Source of the DNA: Phaeocystidibacter luteus
GTDB taxonomy: Bacteria > Bacteroidota > Bacteroidia > Flavobacteriales > Schleiferiaceae
DNA length: 64,000 nt
Assembly: GCF_008933115.1 (NCBI RefSeq)
Contig: NZ_WBVO01000002.1
Span: 248,001 to 312,000 of the forward strand
Direction of reading: 5' to 3'
This document shows, piece by piece, positions 44,845 through 52,167 of this stretch. A program made the position numbers and the translations under genes. Numbering within the stretch: the stretch's first letter is position 1; every line of letters starts with the position of its first letter. The notes under the pieces were generated by a model that was given only the letters and a program-made list of their open reading frames with translations, did no database searches and was not told the DNA's origin.

Positions 44845-47800
44845 ATGCAATTGCGCTACAACCTACTACTACTTTGGGGGCTTTGCAGCCCCTTTCTTTT
44901 TGGACAGCAAAAGCAGACGACCAGCCAGCTGGAAACCGTTCAGGTGAACCAGTTGCGTTCTGGAGGATCTGTGGGAGTTGACCTGAAAGGTAGTGGTGTG
45001 CGCATTGGCATGTGGGAAGCGGCGCTTGGCAGTGCATATCTGCCTGATACTTCACTCTCGGATTTGTCGGCTGTCAGTGCCCAACAAGGCACCGGAACCA
45101 GCAGTCACGCTACCACCGTGGCCAAGATTCTCGCATCTCAGGGAAATGCCGTGCCTAGTGAACAAGGCGTGGCTCCAAGTGCTCAAGTTTTCGCATATAC
45201 GTACGACTATCCACACACAACCTTGGGAGCGGAGATCGGAAGCGCAATTGAAGAGTATAACCTGCTCATTTCCAACCATAGTTATGCTGAAGGTAACGGC
45301 TGGGTAAACGATACGTTTTGGTCGGGAGTGATCGATATGTCGGAAACCGAAGACTACAAGTTCGGTTACTACGGCAACGAATCGCGGATGCTGGATTCCA
45401 TCATGGAGGTTTATCCCTACCATTTGGCCGTGAAGGCCGTTGCTAATGAGCGCGGACAATCCAATGGTGGGACGCCTTTCACCGTCTATTCAAGTTCGAG
45501 CTACAACATCGTATCCAGGTCGTCACCTGTGCCTGAGCAAGACGGTGGTGCGGATGGGTACGACGGTCTTTCAAGAGATGCAACTCCAAAAAATGCGCTG
45601 TGCATTGGAGCTGTAAACAACATCTCAGGTGGGTTCAGTTTAATTTCAGATATCAGTTTTTTGAACAGCTCTTCTGCATATGGCCCCACCGATGATGCTC
45701 GTGTAAAGCCAGACCTAGTCGCTCCCGGTCAATTGACCGCTGGCACGGCGTATACCTCCTATGCAACACCCGTTGTATCGGGTTTGGCTGCGCTGATGCA
45801 AGAGCTCTACAGATCCGAGAATGGCAGATGGATGAAATCGTCTACAGCAAAGGCACTCTTAATACATACGGCGGATGCAGGGACAAGCGATGGTTCGCCC
45901 TTGCCAACCATGGGTTGGGGCATCCCCAATGCCGTATCTGCCGCCAATCATGTGCTTAATGCCGATGGAAACCAACGGATGATTGAGGGTGAACTTGAAA
46001 ATGGGGCAACAAAGACGTTTCGATTTTATCTTGATGGCAGTTCTGATTTTAGGGCTACGCTTGTTTGGACCGATCCCGTAGGAACATCGCCCGCATTGGA
46101 TTTCAATTCGAGTGATTTAGATGATAGCGTGGCCATACTTGTGCATGATCTCGACATTGAATTTTGGCAAGAGAGTGGGCCATCCATGCTAGCACAACCG
46201 TGGAAGCTAAGCGCGGCAAATCCCGGAAACAGTGCTTGGCGTGGCGATAATAATGTAGATAATGTGGAACGCATTGATTATCCCTCCGCATCAATATCGG
46301 CGGGTTGGTATACTATCCGACTCTCGCATGACGGGAGCTTGAGTAAGACGCAGGAATTTTCACTTTTGATAAGCGATGCTGGTGGAATCACCTTTTCAGC
46401 TGGGAGTTGGAATACTGCACCTTCATCATGGGGTTCTGATGTTTTTGTGCGGATTACGGATGTGTCAAATGTTGCGAGGATATCAGACGATGTCACAATT
46501 TCATTTTTAGAAATGGAACCGGCAACAGACCTACAAATCAATGAGGCAAATTCGGTAACGATTTCGGGTGAGGCGCTCTTAAAATCAAACTCGACAGGAA
46601 CAGCTCAAATTGCAGGTCCAATAACAGGACTGATTTGTCGTCAATCCTACATCTCGGGCAGTGCCGATTGGCGAAGTTTATCATCTCCGTTGAAAACCAC
46701 AGTAGGTGAATGGGCCGAGGAGCTTAGCCATGTTCGCTGGTCTGGTACAACCACTCCTTCCGTTTATTCGTGGGACGCCTCCAACGTTCAATGGAACGCC
46801 TTGAGTCAGTCTGATTCGATGAATAAGATCGGAGCAGTTTCGCTTTACATGGGGTCAAATTCTCATTCTCAATTCACCATACTTCCGTTTACGAAAACCA
46901 CGAGGGGACGGCCCGTTGAACGTCATATCACGCTGAGTTTAGAAGTGGATGATGATGTGAGTTCTTCCGATGACCACAAAGGGTGGAACTTTATAGGCCA
47001 TCCTTACTTGGCCTCTATAGATTGGCAAGGCTTGGATGTTTCTCAAACTACTGGCTCATTCTACATTTGGAATCAAGCCGAATCTGATTTCGCAACTTCA
47101 GATGGCACAAATTTCACGCTTGGTGGCAGAAGGTACATTCCTTCAGGTCAGGGTTTCTGGGTGTATTGTCCATCAGGGTCCGCCGGTACGTTGCTCATGG
47201 ATTCAGCGGCGGTCAGTGTGTCGATTGATCAGGAGCTGACAAAGAGCATAACCCCACAGCTCAGAGTTTCGTGGTACATGAGCGACGGCCGGGTAGAGGA
47301 TGTCGTGCTACTTCTCGAAAGAGGTGCCAAGTTGGAGTTTGATATTTGGGAGGATATCCCGCTTCGCGATGGAGGCGATCCTTCTCGTGCCGAGCTGTTT
47401 TGGGGAGAGTTAAATGAGCCTTGTGCGATTGCTAGAGTACCGTCGGATAGTGGTGTAATAGCGCTAAATGTTGCCCCTGGCTCCAGTGGGCTAGACAGTG
47501 TGATTGTGGACATTGAAAACGCCGAAACCAAAACGTTTTACTGGGAAGTCGATACGGCAGTTTTTCCTCTTGATGGAGTGCCACTTTCAGTGTGGCAAAA
47601 CGGTGGAAAGATTTTCCTGCATTGGAATAGCTCACGCATTGCTCTCGAGGAGAATGCGCCAGATGGCCGGTTTATCTACTTCGAAGATGCCATATTTTGG
47701 ACTGAGGACGCGGCTGTAGATGTTTCAATCTACGATATGAATGGAGCTGAGGTCGATTCGCTTAAATGGATGGGGGCAGATTGGAAATCAATTGACCTTG

Positions 47801-47862
47801 CGCCAGGAACGTATGTTCTGCGGAGCAATGAAGGCCATGTGGTTAAGTTCGTTGTTCTCTAG
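44845..47862 (+). CDS. Secreted S8 (subtilisin-like) peptidase with T9SS-type tail
   Basis: 1005 residues with signal peptide ending about FLFGQ. The S8 fold is recognisable: SSHATT (His88), SNHSY (oxyanion Asn144), YTSYATP (nucleophile Ser305). The catalytic-Asp position reads GMWEAAL, Glu58 in place of the usual Asp (WDgG). About 650 residues of beta-rich sequence follow. The C-terminal 60 residues (AAVDVSIYDMNGAEVDSL ... LAPGTYVLRS) resemble a T9SS sorting domain without the usual YPNP. Either an altered protease or a non-catalytic binding protein. Its 3' end overlaps the convergent MauG-type gene by 4 nt. Confidence 0.85.
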   Translation: MQLRYNLLLLWGLCSPFLFGQQKQTTSQLETVQVNQLRSGGSVGVDLKGSGVRIGMWEAALGSAYLPDTSLSDLSAVSAQQGTGTSSHATTVAKILASQGNAVPSEQGVAPSAQVFAYTYDYPHTTLGAEIGSAIEEYNLLISNHSYAEGNGWVNDTFWSGVIDMSETEDYKFGYYGNESRMLDSIMEVYPYHLAVKAVANERGQSNGGTPFTVYSSSSYNIVSRSSPVPEQDGGADGYDGLSRDATPKNALCIGAVNNISGGFSLISDISFLNSSSAYGPTDDARVKPDLVAPGQLTAGTAYTSYATPVVSGLAALMQELYRSENGRWMKSSTAKALLIHTADAGTSDGSPLPTMGWGIPNAVSAANHVLNADGNQRMIEGELENGATKTFRFYLDGSSDFRATLVWTDPVGTSPALDFNSSDLDDSVAILVHDLDIEFWQESGPSMLAQPWKLSAANPGNSAWRGDNNVDNVERIDYPSASISAGWYTIRLSHDGSLSKTQEFSLLISDAGGITFSAGSWNTAPSSWGSDVFVRITDVSNVARISDDVTISFLEMEPATDLQINEANSVTISGEALLKSNSTGTAQIAGPITGLICRQSYISGSADWRSLSSPLKTTVGEWAEELSHVRWSGTTTPSVYSWDASNVQWNALSQSDSMNKIGAVSLYMGSNSHSQFTILPFTKTTRGRPVERHITLSLEVDDDVSSSDDHKGWNFIGHPYLASIDWQGLDVSQTTGSFYIWNQAESDFATSDGTNFTLGGRRYIPSGQGFWVYCPSGSAGTLLMDSAAVSVSIDQELTKSITPQLRVSWYMSDGRVEDVVLLLERGAKLEFDIWEDIPLRDGGDPSRAELFWGELNEPCAIARVPSDSGVIALNVAPGSSGLDSVIVDIENAETKTFYWEVDTAVFPLDGVPLSVWQNGGKIFLHWNSSRIALEENAPDGRFIYFEDAIFWTEDAAVDVSIYDMNGAEVDSLKWMGADWKSIDLAPGTYVLRSNEGHVVKFVVL

Positions 47863-48881
47863 CGTCTCGGTTCGGCGAGCTTTGGGTCTGAGATGAAACT
47901 ATAATCCGTAAGTGTTTTGAGGAATTGGATGATGTCTTCCTTCTCGGCTGAAGTGAGATTTAGTGGTTGGGGAAGGCGATGTGACATATTTGGTTCCACT
48001 TCATCGCTGTAGTGATCGAGCACTTCTTCGAGAGTGAAGAACCTTCCATCATGCATGTAGGGATAAGTCAATTCTACATTCCTCAACGTAGGCACCTTGA
48101 ATTTCCCGTCGTCTGCTGGATCAAGCGTTATCCTTCCTCTTCCTAAATCGTCGAATTCGGAATCTATACCATTTCGTTCATAAGAATAGTCTGTGAACAG
48201 GGGCTCGGTGTGACAGTTAGCGCAGTGTGTATTGAAGAGCGAGTATCCTCGCCGTTCGCTATCGCTGAGCAGAGCCTCGCCTTCCAAATATTTGTCAAAC
48301 CGAGAATCGTCCGAAACCATCAGAAGCATGAATTGACTCATGGCGAAGAATATGCGCTGGGAGGTAATTGTATCGGTCCCAAATGCCTTTTCAAACTTTG
48401 AACGGTATTCGGAGTCACACTTCAATCGATCGATGGCCATCTGCATAGGAAGCGCCATCTCAAGCGTATCTGTTATTGGCGCTAAAGGCATAACATCAAG
48501 GTGAACGATTCCACCGTCAGCCATAAACTGAGGCATCCAGGCAAGGTTGATCAATGCGGGTGAATTTCTCTTTCCAAGTTTTCCCCCAACACCCGCACTC
48601 AATGGTACGTTGTGATCAGCAAAGGCGTGCGTTTGAGCGTGACAACTAGAACAGTTTATAGAGCTGTCGAGCGAAAGTCCATTCTCGTAGAACAGATCTC
48701 TTCCAAGTTCAAACCCTTCTCTGGTAATCGGATTCCGAGGGCTAGAATACTCCACAGGCGGAAAATTGCGAGATGGATAGAATCCAAACGCTGGCTCCTC
48801 CGGCTCATAGGAACATGAGCTGAAGAAGTGAAAGCCCCCCGCTAATGCGAGGAGCTTAATGCTGTCGAGTAGCCGATTCAT
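47859..48881 (-). CDS. MauG/cytochrome-c-peroxidase family dihaem protein (MbnH-like)
   Basis: 340 residues with a lipoprotein-like signal (Cys22-Cys24 region FFSSCSYEP). Two haem c sites: CSSCH near residue 73 and CANCH in the second half (HCANCHTEPLF). The YPYMHDGRFFTLEEV segment is the conserved second-domain motif of this family. It lies directly after an MbnP gene with a one-base overlap (TAATG). In methanotrophs MbnH, a MauG-like dihaem enzyme, oxidises a Trp of MbnP to kynurenine to make a copper site, so the same partnership is inferred here. A plain H2O2-reducing peroxidase is the alternative. Confidence 0.85.
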   Translation of the reverse strand: MNRLLDSIKLLALAGGFHFFSSCSYEPEEPAFGFYPSRNFPPVEYSSPRNPITREGFELGRDLFYENGLSLDSSINCSSCHAQTHAFADHNVPLSAGVGGKLGKRNSPALINLAWMPQFMADGGIVHLDVMPLAPITDTLEMALPMQMAIDRLKCDSEYRSKFEKAFGTDTITSQRIFFAMSQFMLLMVSDDSRFDKYLEGEALLSDSERRGYSLFNTHCANCHTEPLFTDYSYERNGIDSEFDDLGRGRITLDPADDGKFKVPTLRNVELTYPYMHDGRFFTLEEVLDHYSDEVEPNMSHRLPQPLNLTSAEKEDIIQFLKTLTDYSFISDPKLAEPRR

Positions 48882-49645
48882 TATTGAGCGTCCGTTAGAC
48901 GAACCCAACTGTTAAAATCTGCGGTCATCATTACCGCGGCAGGACCAGGCATATGGACCATCGCCCCGTTGGACACGCTTCCATATGTGTGAAATAGTCT
49001 CGCAGGGTTTGCTTGCATGGTCACATTTAACTGATCATTGTTGTCAATGGTGATCATGCTGCCATTCGGAAAATCGAAAGATCTTTCGCTTACTGTGTTA
49101 ATTTGACCAGCAAATCCACCAAGGTGATACACGAAATTGCCCGTTCCAGATTGAGGGGATGTGCCTTCCGCCTTGAGCATGATGTAGCCATTGTTCCAGC
49201 TCCAAAACATCTCATTTGCAGGATCTAAGGCTCCAGTTTGTGAACCACTCACATTGCGCGCACTGTCCACACCAAAGGTTATCATAATCCCTTTGTATGT
49301 GTCTGCTGGAATGTTGTTGATGGTAATGGAGGTCGAACTCTCATCCATCAAGTCGATGAGGTGGTAGGACTCTGGAACGTCGTAAGTCGAATTGTCGTCA
49401 GCGATAAGTTTGACGTTACTCACGTAATGCTTGAAGGTCGTATAGGTTAGTGAATCACCAGTCATCGGGTGATAGAGCACAGTCTCCATTTCGAATGGCA
49501 TAGAGCTCATGGCCCACACATAGTCGAAGTTCAGGGAAAGTGTTCCTGTGCCAGAAGGCGATGGAGTTGGTTCTTCTTCAGTTGAACAAGAAGAAAAGGA
49601 TAGAGCAGCCGCAACTACTCCAATTGAAAGGATAAAACGTTTCAT
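48881..49645 (-). CDS. MbnP-like copper-binding lipoprotein
   Basis: 254 residues. Lipoprotein signal (Cys20 after SFSS). It matches the MbnP family: a beta-sandwich with HPMTGDSLTYTTFKHYVSNVKL, the characteristic MFWSWNNGYIMLKAEG (Trp148, Trp150) and FVYHLGG (His174). MbnP proteins bind Cu(I) through His ligands and a kynurenine derived from Trp. The start at 49645 begins the signal peptide; the frame extends 12 codons further upstream. It sits between the small CxGKC protein and the MauG-type partner. Confidence 0.82.
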   Translation of the reverse strand: MKRFILSIGVVAAALSFSSCSTEEEPTPSPSGTGTLSLNFDYVWAMSSMPFEMETVLYHPMTGDSLTYTTFKHYVSNVKLIADDNSTYDVPESYHLIDLMDESSTSITINNIPADTYKGIMITFGVDSARNVSGSQTGALDPANEMFWSWNNGYIMLKAEGTSPQSGTGNFVYHLGGFAGQINTVSERSFDFPNGSMITIDNNDQLNVTMQANPARLFHTYGSVSNGAMVHMPGPAAVMMTADFNSWVRLTDAQ

Positions 49646-49693
49646 TGTAAAAGTGTTTAGCGATAAAAAAATGTGAATCATTGGGTTGAATCA

Positions 49694-50059
49694 CTAAACA
49701 CGCGGCGGCTTGAGGTCAGGAAGGAGGTATGCGTCTAAAAGCCCGTTTTCAATGTTTGATGAACGGTGGTTTGTTTGTTCTTCTGGAAAGGTGTTTCCCT
49801 GTTCCGATTCTGAGTAGAAGAATACTTCAATTTCAACTTCTCTCAAGGTAGGAATGGCTGGCTCTTCTTCGGTATTAGCCTGCTCTACCATGGCGAGTTG
49901 GCATTTACCGTGACACATCGAGTTCGGTTCTTCCTTGTTTTCACAAAGAACGTTCACATAGTAGTCATACCGAACCGCATAATCGGCTAGTACCGAAAGA
50001 TTCAACAGGCTTGGGGCCATGAGAATAACTAGCAATATGTATGCAATCAGTTTTCGCAT
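49694..50059 (-). CDS. Small membrane-anchored CX9CX3C protein (copper-linked)
   Basis: 121 residues. One N-terminal hydrophobic segment (about 4-24), then a periplasmic part with three conserved-looking cysteines in LCENKEEPNSMCHGKCQL (Cys39, 49, 53). I recall short Bacteroidota proteins with an LCEN...C.GKC motif near copper genes, but no formal name. It could hand over Cu(I) or act in the periplasm as a metal sink. Start at 50059 because the -7 box at 50086-50079 would place the transcript start after the upstream ATG at 50077. First gene of the copper operon. Confidence 0.7.
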   Translation of the reverse strand: MRKLIAYILLVILMAPSLLNLSVLADYAVRYDYYVNVLCENKEEPNSMCHGKCQLAMVEQANTEEEPAIPTLREVEIEVFFYSESEQGNTFPEEQTNHRSSNIENGLLDAYLLPDLKPPRV

Positions 50060-50078: not shown

Positions 50079-50086
50079 CAAAGATA
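50079..50086 (-). promoter_or_regulatory. -7 promoter box of the copper operon
   Basis: TATCTTTG on the minus strand, 19 nt before the ATG at 50059. Confidence 0.55.
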
Positions 50087-50150
50087 AGTGCCCACACATG
50101 GCAGTTAGTGATTTAGCTCACAAAGGTGCACCTGGGTTAGTAAACGAGAA

Positions 50151-50178
50151 AACCCCGACAATTGCCGAGGTTTTCAAG
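50151..50178 (-). terminator. Terminator of the TonB receptor gene
   Basis: On the minus strand AAAACCTCGGCAATTGTCGGGGTTTT forms a stem of about 10 bp with one mismatch and ends in a T-rich run. It separates the TonB receptor from the copper operon, though read-through is possible. Confidence 0.8.
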
Positions 50179-50196: not shown

Positions 50197-52167
50197 TCAG
50201 TATTGGAACGAGTAGCGAACCCCACCTCGAACCCATCTTCCGGGTTGAAGTACGTTGCCTCTATCTTGGTATACTCTATCAAGTAGGTTGTTTCCATCGA
50301 CAAATACCATCCACTGATCGCTCGTCCAGCTTAGTCGAGCGTCAACAAGCACAACTGGAGCATATGGCGTAACCTGACCGGTGCCAAAATCGTTGTATGA
50401 ACCAAGGCGATCCTGACCAGTTACCTGCCAAGAGAGGCCAAATCCATAGCCGAATTCATGCGTAACTCCGAGTGAAACTTTGGCCGCAAGGAAGTCAAGA
50501 ACGTAAAGCGACTGGAAGTCAAATTCGCCCGTAGGTGAATTGAGGAAGGCCGCGCTTAAGCGAATGTTCTTGAGGTAATTCTTGGTGAATTCTCCAACAT
50601 GGAAGTTGATGTCACCATCGACACCGTAAATGGTTAGCTCAGTGATGTTTTGAGCGCGTAGCGTACCTGTGGAGTCTGAAGGCAGAACTACCCAGTCAAT
50701 CATATTTGTTCCATCGCGCAAGAACAAGCTGGCTTGAGCAGAAACGTATTTAGCCCGACCCTTGTATCCAATTTCGTAGTTGTGCGAATACTCAGGTTGA
50801 AGGTCGATTGAACCTTGTGCTCCACCTAGACTGTAGTACAGATCGGTGAATGTAGGAAGGCGGAATGAACGGTTGTAGGAGGCGTAAACCTTTCCGGAAT
50901 TCGGAATTCTGAAGGCTACTTCAAATCCAGGCAACCAAGTGTTTCCGAATGCGGTGTTCATATTGTAGCGAACACTACCTGAAACAGTCCAGTTCTCAAC
51001 ATCAATACGATGGTGAAGGAAGATGCCAGAATTAGTTCGGTTGTCACTCTTCGTATAGTTGAAACGCGTTCCTGGAACTTCGATAGGCGTTTCCATATCC
51101 ATTCCGAGGTTGTTAGAAATGATGTCTTCGTTTCGAAGATCAAATCCAACGAGGGTTTTACCAAGAATACTCTGATGAACCGCGTTCAGTTCACCCCCTT
51201 TTACGCTTGAGCGGTGGAAGTTTGGACCTGCATACCAGCTTGCGGCAGTATCGTTTCCGCGAATGTAGAGACTTGCAGATTCATCGTATTCGTACCATCC
51301 ATCGCCTGTCTCGCGATATAGCTCGAATCTGTCTGTGTGATTGCGGACGTACGCGTTGAAGTTGAAGAGGAATTCTCCAGTGGTGTACGTGCCGTTCAAC
51401 GACCCGAACAGGGTAGAGGTGGCCTCGTATTGATTTGGGAACGCGCTTGTGTAGAAGTTCTGGGCGCCAAATCCTTTGTTGTTGTATCCGCCTTGAAGGT
51501 TTAGAACGAGATCTTCTTTCGAGTAACGAAGCTCTGCGTTTACGTTTCTACGGGCAAAGTCGGTATTGTTGAGGTATCCGTCAGACTCTGCGTAGTTCGC
51601 ACCAACGCGGGCAGATAGTGACTCGCTAAAGCGGTGAGAAGCGCCAAAGCTACCGCCGAAGTAAGCGTATTCGCCGCCTTCTGCTTCAACATACACTTGA
51701 TCGGTGTTAGGGCTTTTGGTGATGATATTGATGGCTCCACTAAAGGCATATGGACCGTAGCGGTGAGAAGCGCCGCCATGAAGTACTTCGATTCGCTCGA
51801 TTTCATCGATGCTGATAGGAAGGTTCATGTTGTGGTGACCCGTTTGGGGATCGTTCATCGGTACTCCGTTGAGGAGGATTAGGGTTTGATCGAATGTACC
51901 GCCGCGGACACTTACATCGGCTTGTACATCGTATGGACCGCGTTGGCGCACATCCACTGCGCTGGCATACTCGAGTAGTTCGTTGATTGATTTTACGGCA
52001 GAAGCCTCGATTTGTTCAGCGGTTAGGATTTCGATGTGTTGGCCTTCGAACAGGTTGCTCGGGGCTTTTTCACCAAAAACATCTACTTGCTGAATCAAGT
52101 TTTCGTCGGATTGGGCATGGGTAAGCACCGACGCGACCAGAAGGCCGGAGGTTAACAGTTTTCTCAT
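50197..52167 (-). CDS. TonB-dependent receptor, BtuB-like
   Basis: 656 residues. Signal peptide about 1-18, no regulatory Ig domain, plug from about 40 (SINELLEYASAVDVRQRG, VSVRGGTFDQTLILLNGVPMND, RIEVLHGGASHRYG), then a barrel ending in GGVRYSFQY. The short N-terminus and barrel length resemble BtuB-type receptors for metal complexes or small cofactors. Its place just upstream of the CxGKC/MbnP/MauG genes suggests a copper chelate as substrate, but it has its own terminator and could carry something else. Confidence 0.88.
   Translation of the reverse strand: MRKLLTSGLLVASVLTHAQSDENLIQQVDVFGEKAPSNLFEGQHIEILTAEQIEASAVKSINELLEYASAVDVRQRGPYDVQADVSVRGGTFDQTLILLNGVPMNDPQTGHHNMNLPISIDEIERIEVLHGGASHRYGPYAFSGAINIITKSPNTDQVYVEAEGGEYAYFGGSFGASHRFSESLSARVGANYAESDGYLNNTDFARRNVNAELRYSKEDLVLNLQGGYNNKGFGAQNFYTSAFPNQYEATSTLFGSLNGTYTTGEFLFNFNAYVRNHTDRFELYRETGDGWYEYDESASLYIRGNDTAASWYAGPNFHRSSVKGGELNAVHQSILGKTLVGFDLRNEDIISNNLGMDMETPIEVPGTRFNYTKSDNRTNSGIFLHHRIDVENWTVSGSVRYNMNTAFGNTWLPGFEVAFRIPNSGKVYASYNRSFRLPTFTDLYYSLGGAQGSIDLQPEYSHNYEIGYKGRAKYVSAQASLFLRDGTNMIDWVVLPSDSTGTLRAQNITELTIYGVDGDINFHVGEFTKNYLKNIRLSAAFLNSPTGEFDFQSLYVLDFLAAKVSLGVTHEFGYGFGLSWQVTGQDRLGSYNDFGTGQVTPYAPVVLVDARLSWTSDQWMVFVDGNNLLDRVYQDRGNVLQPGRWVRGGVRYSFQY

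Follow-up and report, generated by a model that had tools for sequence, protein, structure and literature searches.

What does a small cysteine-containing protein do at the head of an MbnP-MbnH gene pair in a member of the Bacteroidota? The question is raised by a 64,000-nucleotide stretch of the Phaeocystidibacter luteus genome (assembly GCF_008933115.1, contig NZ_WBVO01000002.1, positions 248,001 to 312,000; hereafter the window, to which positions refer), whose minus strand carries three genes, all confirmed as real, for the small protein, MbnP and MbnH:

49694-50059, minus strand: putative small leader-peptide gene, 121 amino acids (aa), with an N-terminal hydrophobic segment, CX9CX3C, a variable linker and C-terminal KPPRV.
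48881-49645, minus strand: MbnP gene, 254 aa, with W148 and W150 of the WxW motif and H174 conserved.
47859-48881, minus strand: MbnH/MauG-like di-haem gene, 340 aa, with CXXCH at residues 77 and 220, and Tyr291.

The mbnP gene lies 48 nt behind the small-protein gene, and the mbnH gene overlaps the mbnP stop codon by 1 nt. A preliminary description had read the trio as adjacent or overlapping minus-strand genes that include an MbnP homologue and a MauG-type di-haem protein, and both coordinates and family matches agree with it. By analogy with CruR and CutF, we consider it likely that the small gene is a cis-acting, copper-sensing arrest leader of a leader-mbnP-mbnH operon, and we refer to this protein and its relatives as leaders.

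The leader has no Pfam or NCBIfam match (window protein and the further members scanned), and no description of its family was found in the open-licence literature. The family is present in 37 of 60 genomes (own genome and relatives) and in 119 of 296 Bacteroidota genomes across the phylum; these counts, like the MbnP and DUF2946 genome counts below, include the window's own genome, and some of the 296 genomes gave rows to the query alignment. At least 577 relatives occur in GTDB contigs, and the best 80 of these are Bacteroidota by title, save one contig labelled Oligoflexia (L169). This short metagenome-assembled contig encodes the same leader protein, with the same upstream gene sizes, as the Bacteroidia locus L167, and is probably mis-binned.

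Members of the family share an N-terminal hydrophobic segment, a cysteine motif and a Pro-Pro tail. A strongly hydrophobic 17-residue stretch lies ahead of the motif in 130 of 140 leaders; 180 of 496 other small genes have one close to their start, the two scans differing in range. The motif, C-x-N-x7-C-x-G-x-C (N in 96%), is 15 residues long in 137 of 140 proteins, among which C1, C11, G13 and C15 are invariant; the remaining three have a shorter first spacing and were excluded from spacing and composition counts. Pro-Pro occurs within the last 25 residues in all 140 distinct complete leaders and within the last 12 in 138, compared with 13 (last 12) and 11 (last 8) of 1433 other genes of the same loci. 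Gene calls were simple longest-frame calls, and the longest frame exceeded 150 aa in 8 of 140 leaders. The tail is not a profile artefact, because a tail-less profile (N-terminal part plus motif) recovers the same leader set in the loci examined. From the last Cys to Pro-Pro there are 64-70 residues in 131 of 137 proteins (full range 62-75), with a median of 66 and a standard deviation (SD) of 2.1 (n = 132), across a linker with a mean pairwise identity of 22%, flanked by a motif at 64% and an xxPP tail at 77%. The tail is mostly F[HR]PP; the residue before Pro-Pro is His in 61% and Arg in 18%, and the residue preceding it is Phe in 78%. The corresponding features in the window, together with a promoter-like box, are:

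49901-49945, minus strand: CENKEEPNSMCHGKC, presumed copper-sensing Cys motif (CX9CX3C), residues 39-53.
49703-49708, minus strand: CCG CCG, encoding both Pro residues (118-119) of the presumed arrest site, 64 residues past the last motif Cys.
50079-50086, minus strand: TATCTTTG, match to the box TAnnTTTG, 19 nt ahead of the leader ATG.

The TAnnTTTG box, which we take to be the Bacteroidota -7 promoter motif, was found upstream of 101 of 135 leader genes, compared with 223 of 1511 other genes and 1 of 82 MbnP genes. Scans of the region for sigma-70-type promoters and for terminator-like elements gave no clear excess over shuffles (7 versus 5.2 and 5 versus 4.3, respectively). A same-strand gene follows the leader in 137 of 139 cases after a median gap of 106 nt (n = 137), compared with 32.5 nt for other same-strand pairs (n = 1046) and 3 nt for MbnP-MbnH (n = 63). 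Two leader copies are present in 16 of 126 loci; in several of them each copy heads its own unit (for instance L073, L127, L188 and L199), and the copies lie side by side in L086, L115 and L192. A cis-acting element would require such an arrangement, with one leader for every transcription unit.

The genes behind leaders are a restricted set. Neighbour counts rest on loci L121-L200, which were not chosen by their neighbours and represent the best 80 of the at least 577 relatives (within them, L122 and L123 coincide with L069 and L074, and the L169 protein equals that of L167); L061-L080 were picked mostly for an MbnP beside the leader and L081-L100 for MbnP-free genomes, so that neighbour counts there are biased. 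Among 91 leader copies in L121-L200, 87 have a gene for MbnP, a TonB-dependent receptor (TonB), SCO, OMP5 or a YtkA-like protein within the next four same-strand genes. The gene directly behind is TonB in 27, MbnP in 26, OMP5 in 14, a YtkA-like gene in 9, another gene in 13, another leader in 1 and none in 1; within four genes, TonB was found in 39 of 91 and MbnP in 40 of 91. The four exceptions are L146, at a contig end; L180, a second copy, with a 139-aa gene of unknown kind; L182, with DJ-1/PfpI and acetolactate decarboxylase genes; and L190, with an unknown gene and an integrase. In MbnP-free genomes the leader stands mostly ahead of TonB receptors (L081-L100). The preliminary description had expected the small protein to co-occur with MbnP, and a survey bears this out, with the leader present in 57 of 77 genomes with MbnP versus 62 of 219 without (hand-compiled counts, odds ratio 7.2). 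Where MbnP copies have no leader of this family in the three preceding genes, 17 of 20 lack any PP-tailed small frame within 700 nt; the other 3 were considered as alternative PP-tailed leaders and look like chance.

OMP5 is a recurring beta-barrel-like protein of ~310 aa, encoded behind MbnH or directly behind the leader. Its cluster comprises L062:4714-5643, L080:13236-14153 and 10 further loci; PF13557 matches one member weakly (20.2 bits, under the cut-off of 22) and another not at all. A longer row is found at L071:4910-12986, where genes for a Fur/Zur-like protein, a Zn/Cd-type P-type ATPase, a leader, a YHS protein, SCO and an Mn/Fe superoxide dismutase are followed by a second leader and then MbnP-MbnH-OMP5; L075 is similar, as is L087 without the second leader.

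The MbnP-MbnH pair of the window is diverged. MbnP scores 172.4 bits against PF20243 (curated cut-off 27), which makes it a member of the Pfam family, and 49.5 bits against the equivalog TIGR04052 'MbnP_like_WxW', under the cut-off of 140. MbnH scores 157.5 bits against Pfam CCP_MauG, and its best NCBIfam match, TIGR04039 'MbnH family di-heme enzyme', reaches 213 bits, under the cut-off of 362.85. Because the NCBIfam scores fall under their cut-offs, we regard both proteins, judged by sequence, as diverged members of their families. MbnP W148, W150 and H174 are 90% or more conserved among 49 sequences, and among solved structures the profile of these relatives has a single convincing match, 7l6g (E 2e-6), to which M-x-W-x-W and the His align. 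The AlphaFold2 model of MbnP (pLDDT 88.3) has an MbnP fold; its sole PDB structure matches up to E 0.001 are 6 chains of 7l6g (MbnP from Methylosinus trichosporium), with moderate agreement (TM by query 0.50-0.56, rmsd 5.6-7.6). The N terminus of MbnP is lipoprotein-like, as judged by eye.

MbnH has its best PDB sequence match in 6e1c 'Di-heme enzyme' (E 8e-47), which we take to be MbnH of M. trichosporium. It is of the MbnH/MauG type, with two CXXCH motifs and a Tyr replacing the peroxidase Met ligand; this residue, Y291, is Tyr in 68 of 70 aligned MbnH sequences, a set that contains the duplicate loci named above. The alignment to MauG (3l4m) ends with 291 on 294, and Tyr294 of MauG is presumably a haem ligand. 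At MbnH position 120 the window reads QFMADG, with Ala where 45 of the 70 carry a Trp before DG, presumably the inter-haem Trp; 8 others of the 70 have Ala, and the copy in the same-genus locus L061 has Trp. In methanotrophs, the MbnP residue that MbnH converts is the first Trp of WxW.

MbnP/MbnH pairs outside methanobactin (Mbn) clusters are not new. The pairs were described in 2013 as conserved 'far beyond' Mbn producers (PMC3621798), and CorA, an MbnP relative, is copper-repressible (PMC3912023). Like the window, the known MbnP/MbnH and CorA/CorB pairs combine an MbnP domain, WxW and His with a MauG-like partner in adjacent genes (PMC3621798, PMC3912023); unlike known MbnP/MbnH, the window pair lies outside a methanobactin cluster, scores under the NCBIfam equivalog cut-offs and has Ala at the MbnH Trp place. 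That the pair lies outside such a cluster had already been proposed, and we found no MbnB above the TIGR04159 cut-off in the genome (best 55.8 bits versus 325), consistent with the absence of methanobactin; the gene with that score lies on another contig and belongs to PF05114 (MNIO). Five MbnP matches occur in the genome as a whole. On contig C1, tandem MbnP copies precede an MbnH (L080:8080-9568), and one of them (L080:8813-9568) has lost WxW and reads IYRGTEGY.

The design of the leader is closest to two copper-sensing nascent peptides of Proteobacteria. CruR of Bordetella pertussis, a DUF2946 protein (PF11162), is encoded by the first gene of a TonB operon that copper represses. Copper is sensed by its CXXC and the ribosome is arrested by its C-terminal RAPP, the spacing between the two being conserved and important; once the arrest is relieved, Rho-dependent termination follows (PMC9426467). 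In vitro work has demonstrated the arrest at RAPP (PMC12992588). Operons that begin with a CruR homologue include genes for TonB receptors, ScoC, PcuAC and MbnPH-like proteins (PMC9426467). CruR and the leader, the latter presumably exported as CruR is, are both small products of a head gene, with a Cys motif, a C-terminal Pro-Pro, conserved spacing and a long gap behind; they differ in motif and spacing (CXXC and RAPP with 45 residues between in CruR, CX9CX3C and mostly F[HR]PP with ~66 in the leader family) and in the gap, which is mostly shorter behind leaders than the 162 nt of CruR (PMC9426467). The window gene is CruR-like in design: it stands at the head of a copper-related operon and carries a Cys motif and a PP motif set apart from each other, with CX9CX3C instead of the CXXC of DUF2946. 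Homologues of CruR are reported from Proteobacteria, with few in Planctomycetes, Firmicutes and Deinococcus, and Bacteroidota are not named in the excerpts available (PMC9426467). DUF2946 scored above cut-off in 5 of 296 Bacteroidota genomes. Among four such loci examined, the gene precedes a TonB receptor in L201 and L203, and a gap and a periplasmic binding protein in L202; in L204 (genome G297), MbnP (92.3 bits) and a CCP_MauG gene are immediately preceded by a DUF2946 gene with an RGPP tail. G297 has no match of the leader family, and its DUF2946 gene is a natural replacement at the leader's spot.

CutF of Rhodobacter capsulatus acts through a stem-loop with the opposite sign to CruR, copper turning CutO on (PMC9973294). 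CutF-like proteins share with the leader CxxxC (which the leader's CxGKC fits), a PP near the C terminus and a stem-loop behind the gene, and they have a Sec signal, to which the leader's N-terminal hydrophobic segment may correspond (PMC9973294). Measured against the CutF-like criteria (<150 aa, a Sec signal peptide, PP within the 15 C-terminal residues and a same-strand gene behind), the window protein has 121 aa, PP at 118-119, mbnP 48 nt behind and, as a putative signal, its N-terminal hydrophobic segment. The CutF-like list D is 19% Bacteroidota, or 40% after normalising (PMC9973294); given this share and the fit of CxGKC to the CxxxC rule, the list may well already hold leader-family members without further study. 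The term 'MbnP' occurs 0 times in the main text of that paper. SecM, ApdA/ApdP and the RQH family likewise have a C-terminal Pro-containing arrest motif in a small exported product before a regulated gene (PMC10987492, PMC12992588); known arrest peptides also include ones encoded ahead of sec genes, some with C-terminal Pro only in Bacteroidota (PMC10987492). RAPP/RGPP peptides differ from the leader, the tail of which is F[HR]PP or KPP. In a GTDB survey of RAPP/RGPP leaders, Cu-related ones were absent in Bacteroidota and TonB-related ones were found in all Gram-negatives, as far as the excerpts available state (PMC12992588), and the leader family could fill the Bacteroidota gap for Cu-related genes with another tail.

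The mechanism that we infer, from stalling and copper sensing to the direction of the response and kynurenine formation, would begin with transcription of the trio as one operon, leader-mbnP-mbnH, from its own promoter. The N-terminal hydrophobic segment would carry the nascent chain to the membrane. With the ribosome at Pro-Pro, CX9CX3C would have just emerged, possibly on the periplasmic side, where it could bind Cu(I). A spacing of ~66 residues (45 in CruR) would place the Cys motif beyond the ribosome tunnel, perhaps through the translocon, and would suit the sensing of periplasmic copper. Cu(I) binding would alter the Pro-Pro arrest, and the arrest state would determine how strongly mbnP and mbnH are expressed. 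The analogy with CruR makes one sign the likeliest, in which low copper stalls the ribosome (genes ON) and bound copper relieves the stall (genes OFF). A role in uptake or scavenging would agree with this sign, as does the repression of CorA by copper. Downstream, MbnH would oxidise the first Trp of the MbnP WxW motif to kynurenine, and MbnP would bind Cu(I).

In the window, a predicted RNA stem links the Pro codons to the mbnP start:

49690-49700, minus strand: 5' arm of an 11-bp stem spanning the leader stop codon, predicted to lie under a ribosome stalled at the PP codons.
49654-49664, minus strand: 3' arm of the stem, ending 8 nt before the MbnP ATG.

The stem begins right behind the Pro codons, and the 61-nt fold (-11.7 kcal/mol, z -3.8) is matched in stability by 0 of 200 shuffles. 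Given the size of the ribosome footprint, a ribosome on the Pro codons would cover the 5' arm and hold the stem open, with the 3' arm just before the mbnP start. Locus L061, from the same genus, has a stem of the same layout and different sequence, which begins immediately after the Pro codons and ends shortly ahead of the MbnP ATG (z -3.7, 2 of 200 shuffles as stable). Across the family, own arms pair better than swapped arms (p 4e-9 for leaders; p 0.01 for control gene pairs), the own 3' arm ranking in the best 5% in 23 of 112 leaders versus 11 of 112 control pairs. The window is outside these 112 because its longest mbnP frame leaves too short a gap. Intergenic folds behind leaders have a median z of -2.3, versus -1.2 in controls (p 0.003). 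Controls were random samples of other gene pairs (150, or 112 of 394).

Several results weigh against a copper-sensing arrest leader of this kind. Folds with seven or more bridging pairs were not significantly more frequent (67 of 123 leaders versus 70 of 150 controls, p 0.22), so that the tests disagree and a stop-spanning stem was not accepted as a family-wide mechanism. The excess of C over G, a mark compatible with Rho, peaks in the last 60 nt of leaders (+0.124 versus -0.028); under a codon-usage control over the last 40 codons it was 0.105 observed versus 0.095 expected (small excess, p 3e-4), and this C>G bubble was rejected as independent proof of Rho, since amino-acid content explains almost all of it. 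Homology to DUF2946 was not detected: its profile matched none of 20 leader-family members scanned, and hhalign of leader versus DUF2946 gave a probability of 0.2%, with the PP tail alone aligned to a DUF2946 profile of just 4 sequences. Leader tails, mostly F[HR]PP and KPP in the window, are not the proven RAPP/RGPP. Copper as the metal is suggested by the neighbours. The best models for three scanned TonB receptors behind leaders are TonB-copper (L096), siderophore (L081) and SusC-type (L092), all below the NCBIfam cut-off, and the leader follows a P-type ATPase cluster gene in L071, L075 and L087, of Zn/Cd-like type in L071.

These points bear on what the leader senses. An arrest leader responding to zinc, another metal, thiol redox state or export status would account for the leader beside the Fur/Zur-like gene and Zn/Cd-type P-type ATPase of L071; TonB receptors behind leaders could carry many substrates, and arrest peptides upstream of sec genes provide a precedent, some with C-terminal Pro only in Bacteroidota (PMC10987492). 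The MbnP, MbnH and SCO neighbours point to copper, and we give such a cue little credence. The response may also have the opposite sign. In a CutF-like variant, copper would promote the stall, the stem would open and the genes would turn ON. The stems of the window and L061 would fit this sign, as both bridge the leader stop and end shortly ahead of the MbnP start, a layout shared with the CutF model (PMC9973294), and most gaps are shorter than the 162 nt of CruR; family-wide, the stem evidence is mixed, and the copper-repressible CorA, an MbnP relative (PMC3912023), fits the CruR sign. We regard the CutF-like sign as rather unlikely, though a clearly stronger candidate than a non-copper cue.

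The small protein may also be read as no regulator at all. The preliminary description had taken it as a third component of the MbnP/MbnH system, and a stable periplasmic partner that binds copper or delivers it to the pair would have the N-terminal hydrophobic segment (130 of 140), the invariant cysteines and the co-occurrence with MbnP in its favour. Such a partner would leave unexplained why nearly all leaders end in a PP tail, why the spacing hardly changes although the linker is variable, and why the gene has a promoter box, a long gap behind it, repeated copies per locus and a position before TonB in MbnP-free genomes; it is in our view improbable. The third-component claim is probably wrong: the small protein stands before TonB about as often as before MbnP (39 versus 40 of 91), is found in MbnP-free genomes (L081-L100), usually has its own promoter box and bears the marks of an arrest leader.

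If the copper-sensing arrest leader is correct, a family that no Pfam or NCBIfam model covers and that occurs in 119 of the 296 Bacteroidota genomes sampled gains a function, and the leader becomes a tag for copper operons, including those of TonB receptors of unknown substrate. It would extend nascent-chain copper sensing in a phylum for which the RAPP/RGPP survey, in the excerpts available, reports none for Cu-related genes (PMC12992588), would indicate convergence on one design, and would offer a new di-proline tail for ribosome tests. The puzzle of an MbnP/MbnH 'third component' would become a question of regulation. A broader proposal, which we hold with slightly less than even confidence, is that Bacteroidota have a separate, phylum-wide class of metal-sensing arrest leaders, unrelated in sequence to DUF2946, with F[HR]PP as a new arrest tail and a ruler of 66 residues by which CX9CX3C, as the copper site, comes to lie on the periplasmic side, governing most kinds of copper-uptake and copper-protein operon, MbnP-MbnH included.

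Upstream of the trio, the window encodes a TonB receptor on the same strand:

50197-52167, minus strand: TonB-dependent receptor, upstream neighbour, judged outside the operon.
50148-50175, minus strand: hairpin behind the TonB-receptor gene, probable transcript end (91-nt stretch, z -3.2, 0 of 200 shuffles as stable).

Because this strong hairpin and the promoter-like box separate the two, the receptor is probably not a member of the trio's operon. Reading it as a B12 receptor was also rejected: TIGR01779 is the best NCBIfam match, yet scores 135.6 against a cut-off of 599.7, and Rfam at the gathering threshold found no cobalamin riboswitch in the window, the sole match being one tRNA. On contig C3 of the same genome (L205:2916-5856), a PF05114 (MNIO) gene adjoins a PF09836 DUF2063 gene, together with a small protein with repeated KCGEGSCG and genes resembling a sigma factor and its partner. 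This looks like a bufferin-type copper RiPP (ribosomally synthesized and post-translationally modified peptide) cluster. On the other side of the trio, a subtilase-type peptidase with a weak T9SS C-terminal tail match (44845-47862) is convergent with MbnH, with a 4-base end overlap; in L061, the opposite flank carries a frame of comparable length (1009 aa), which is divergent from the leader.

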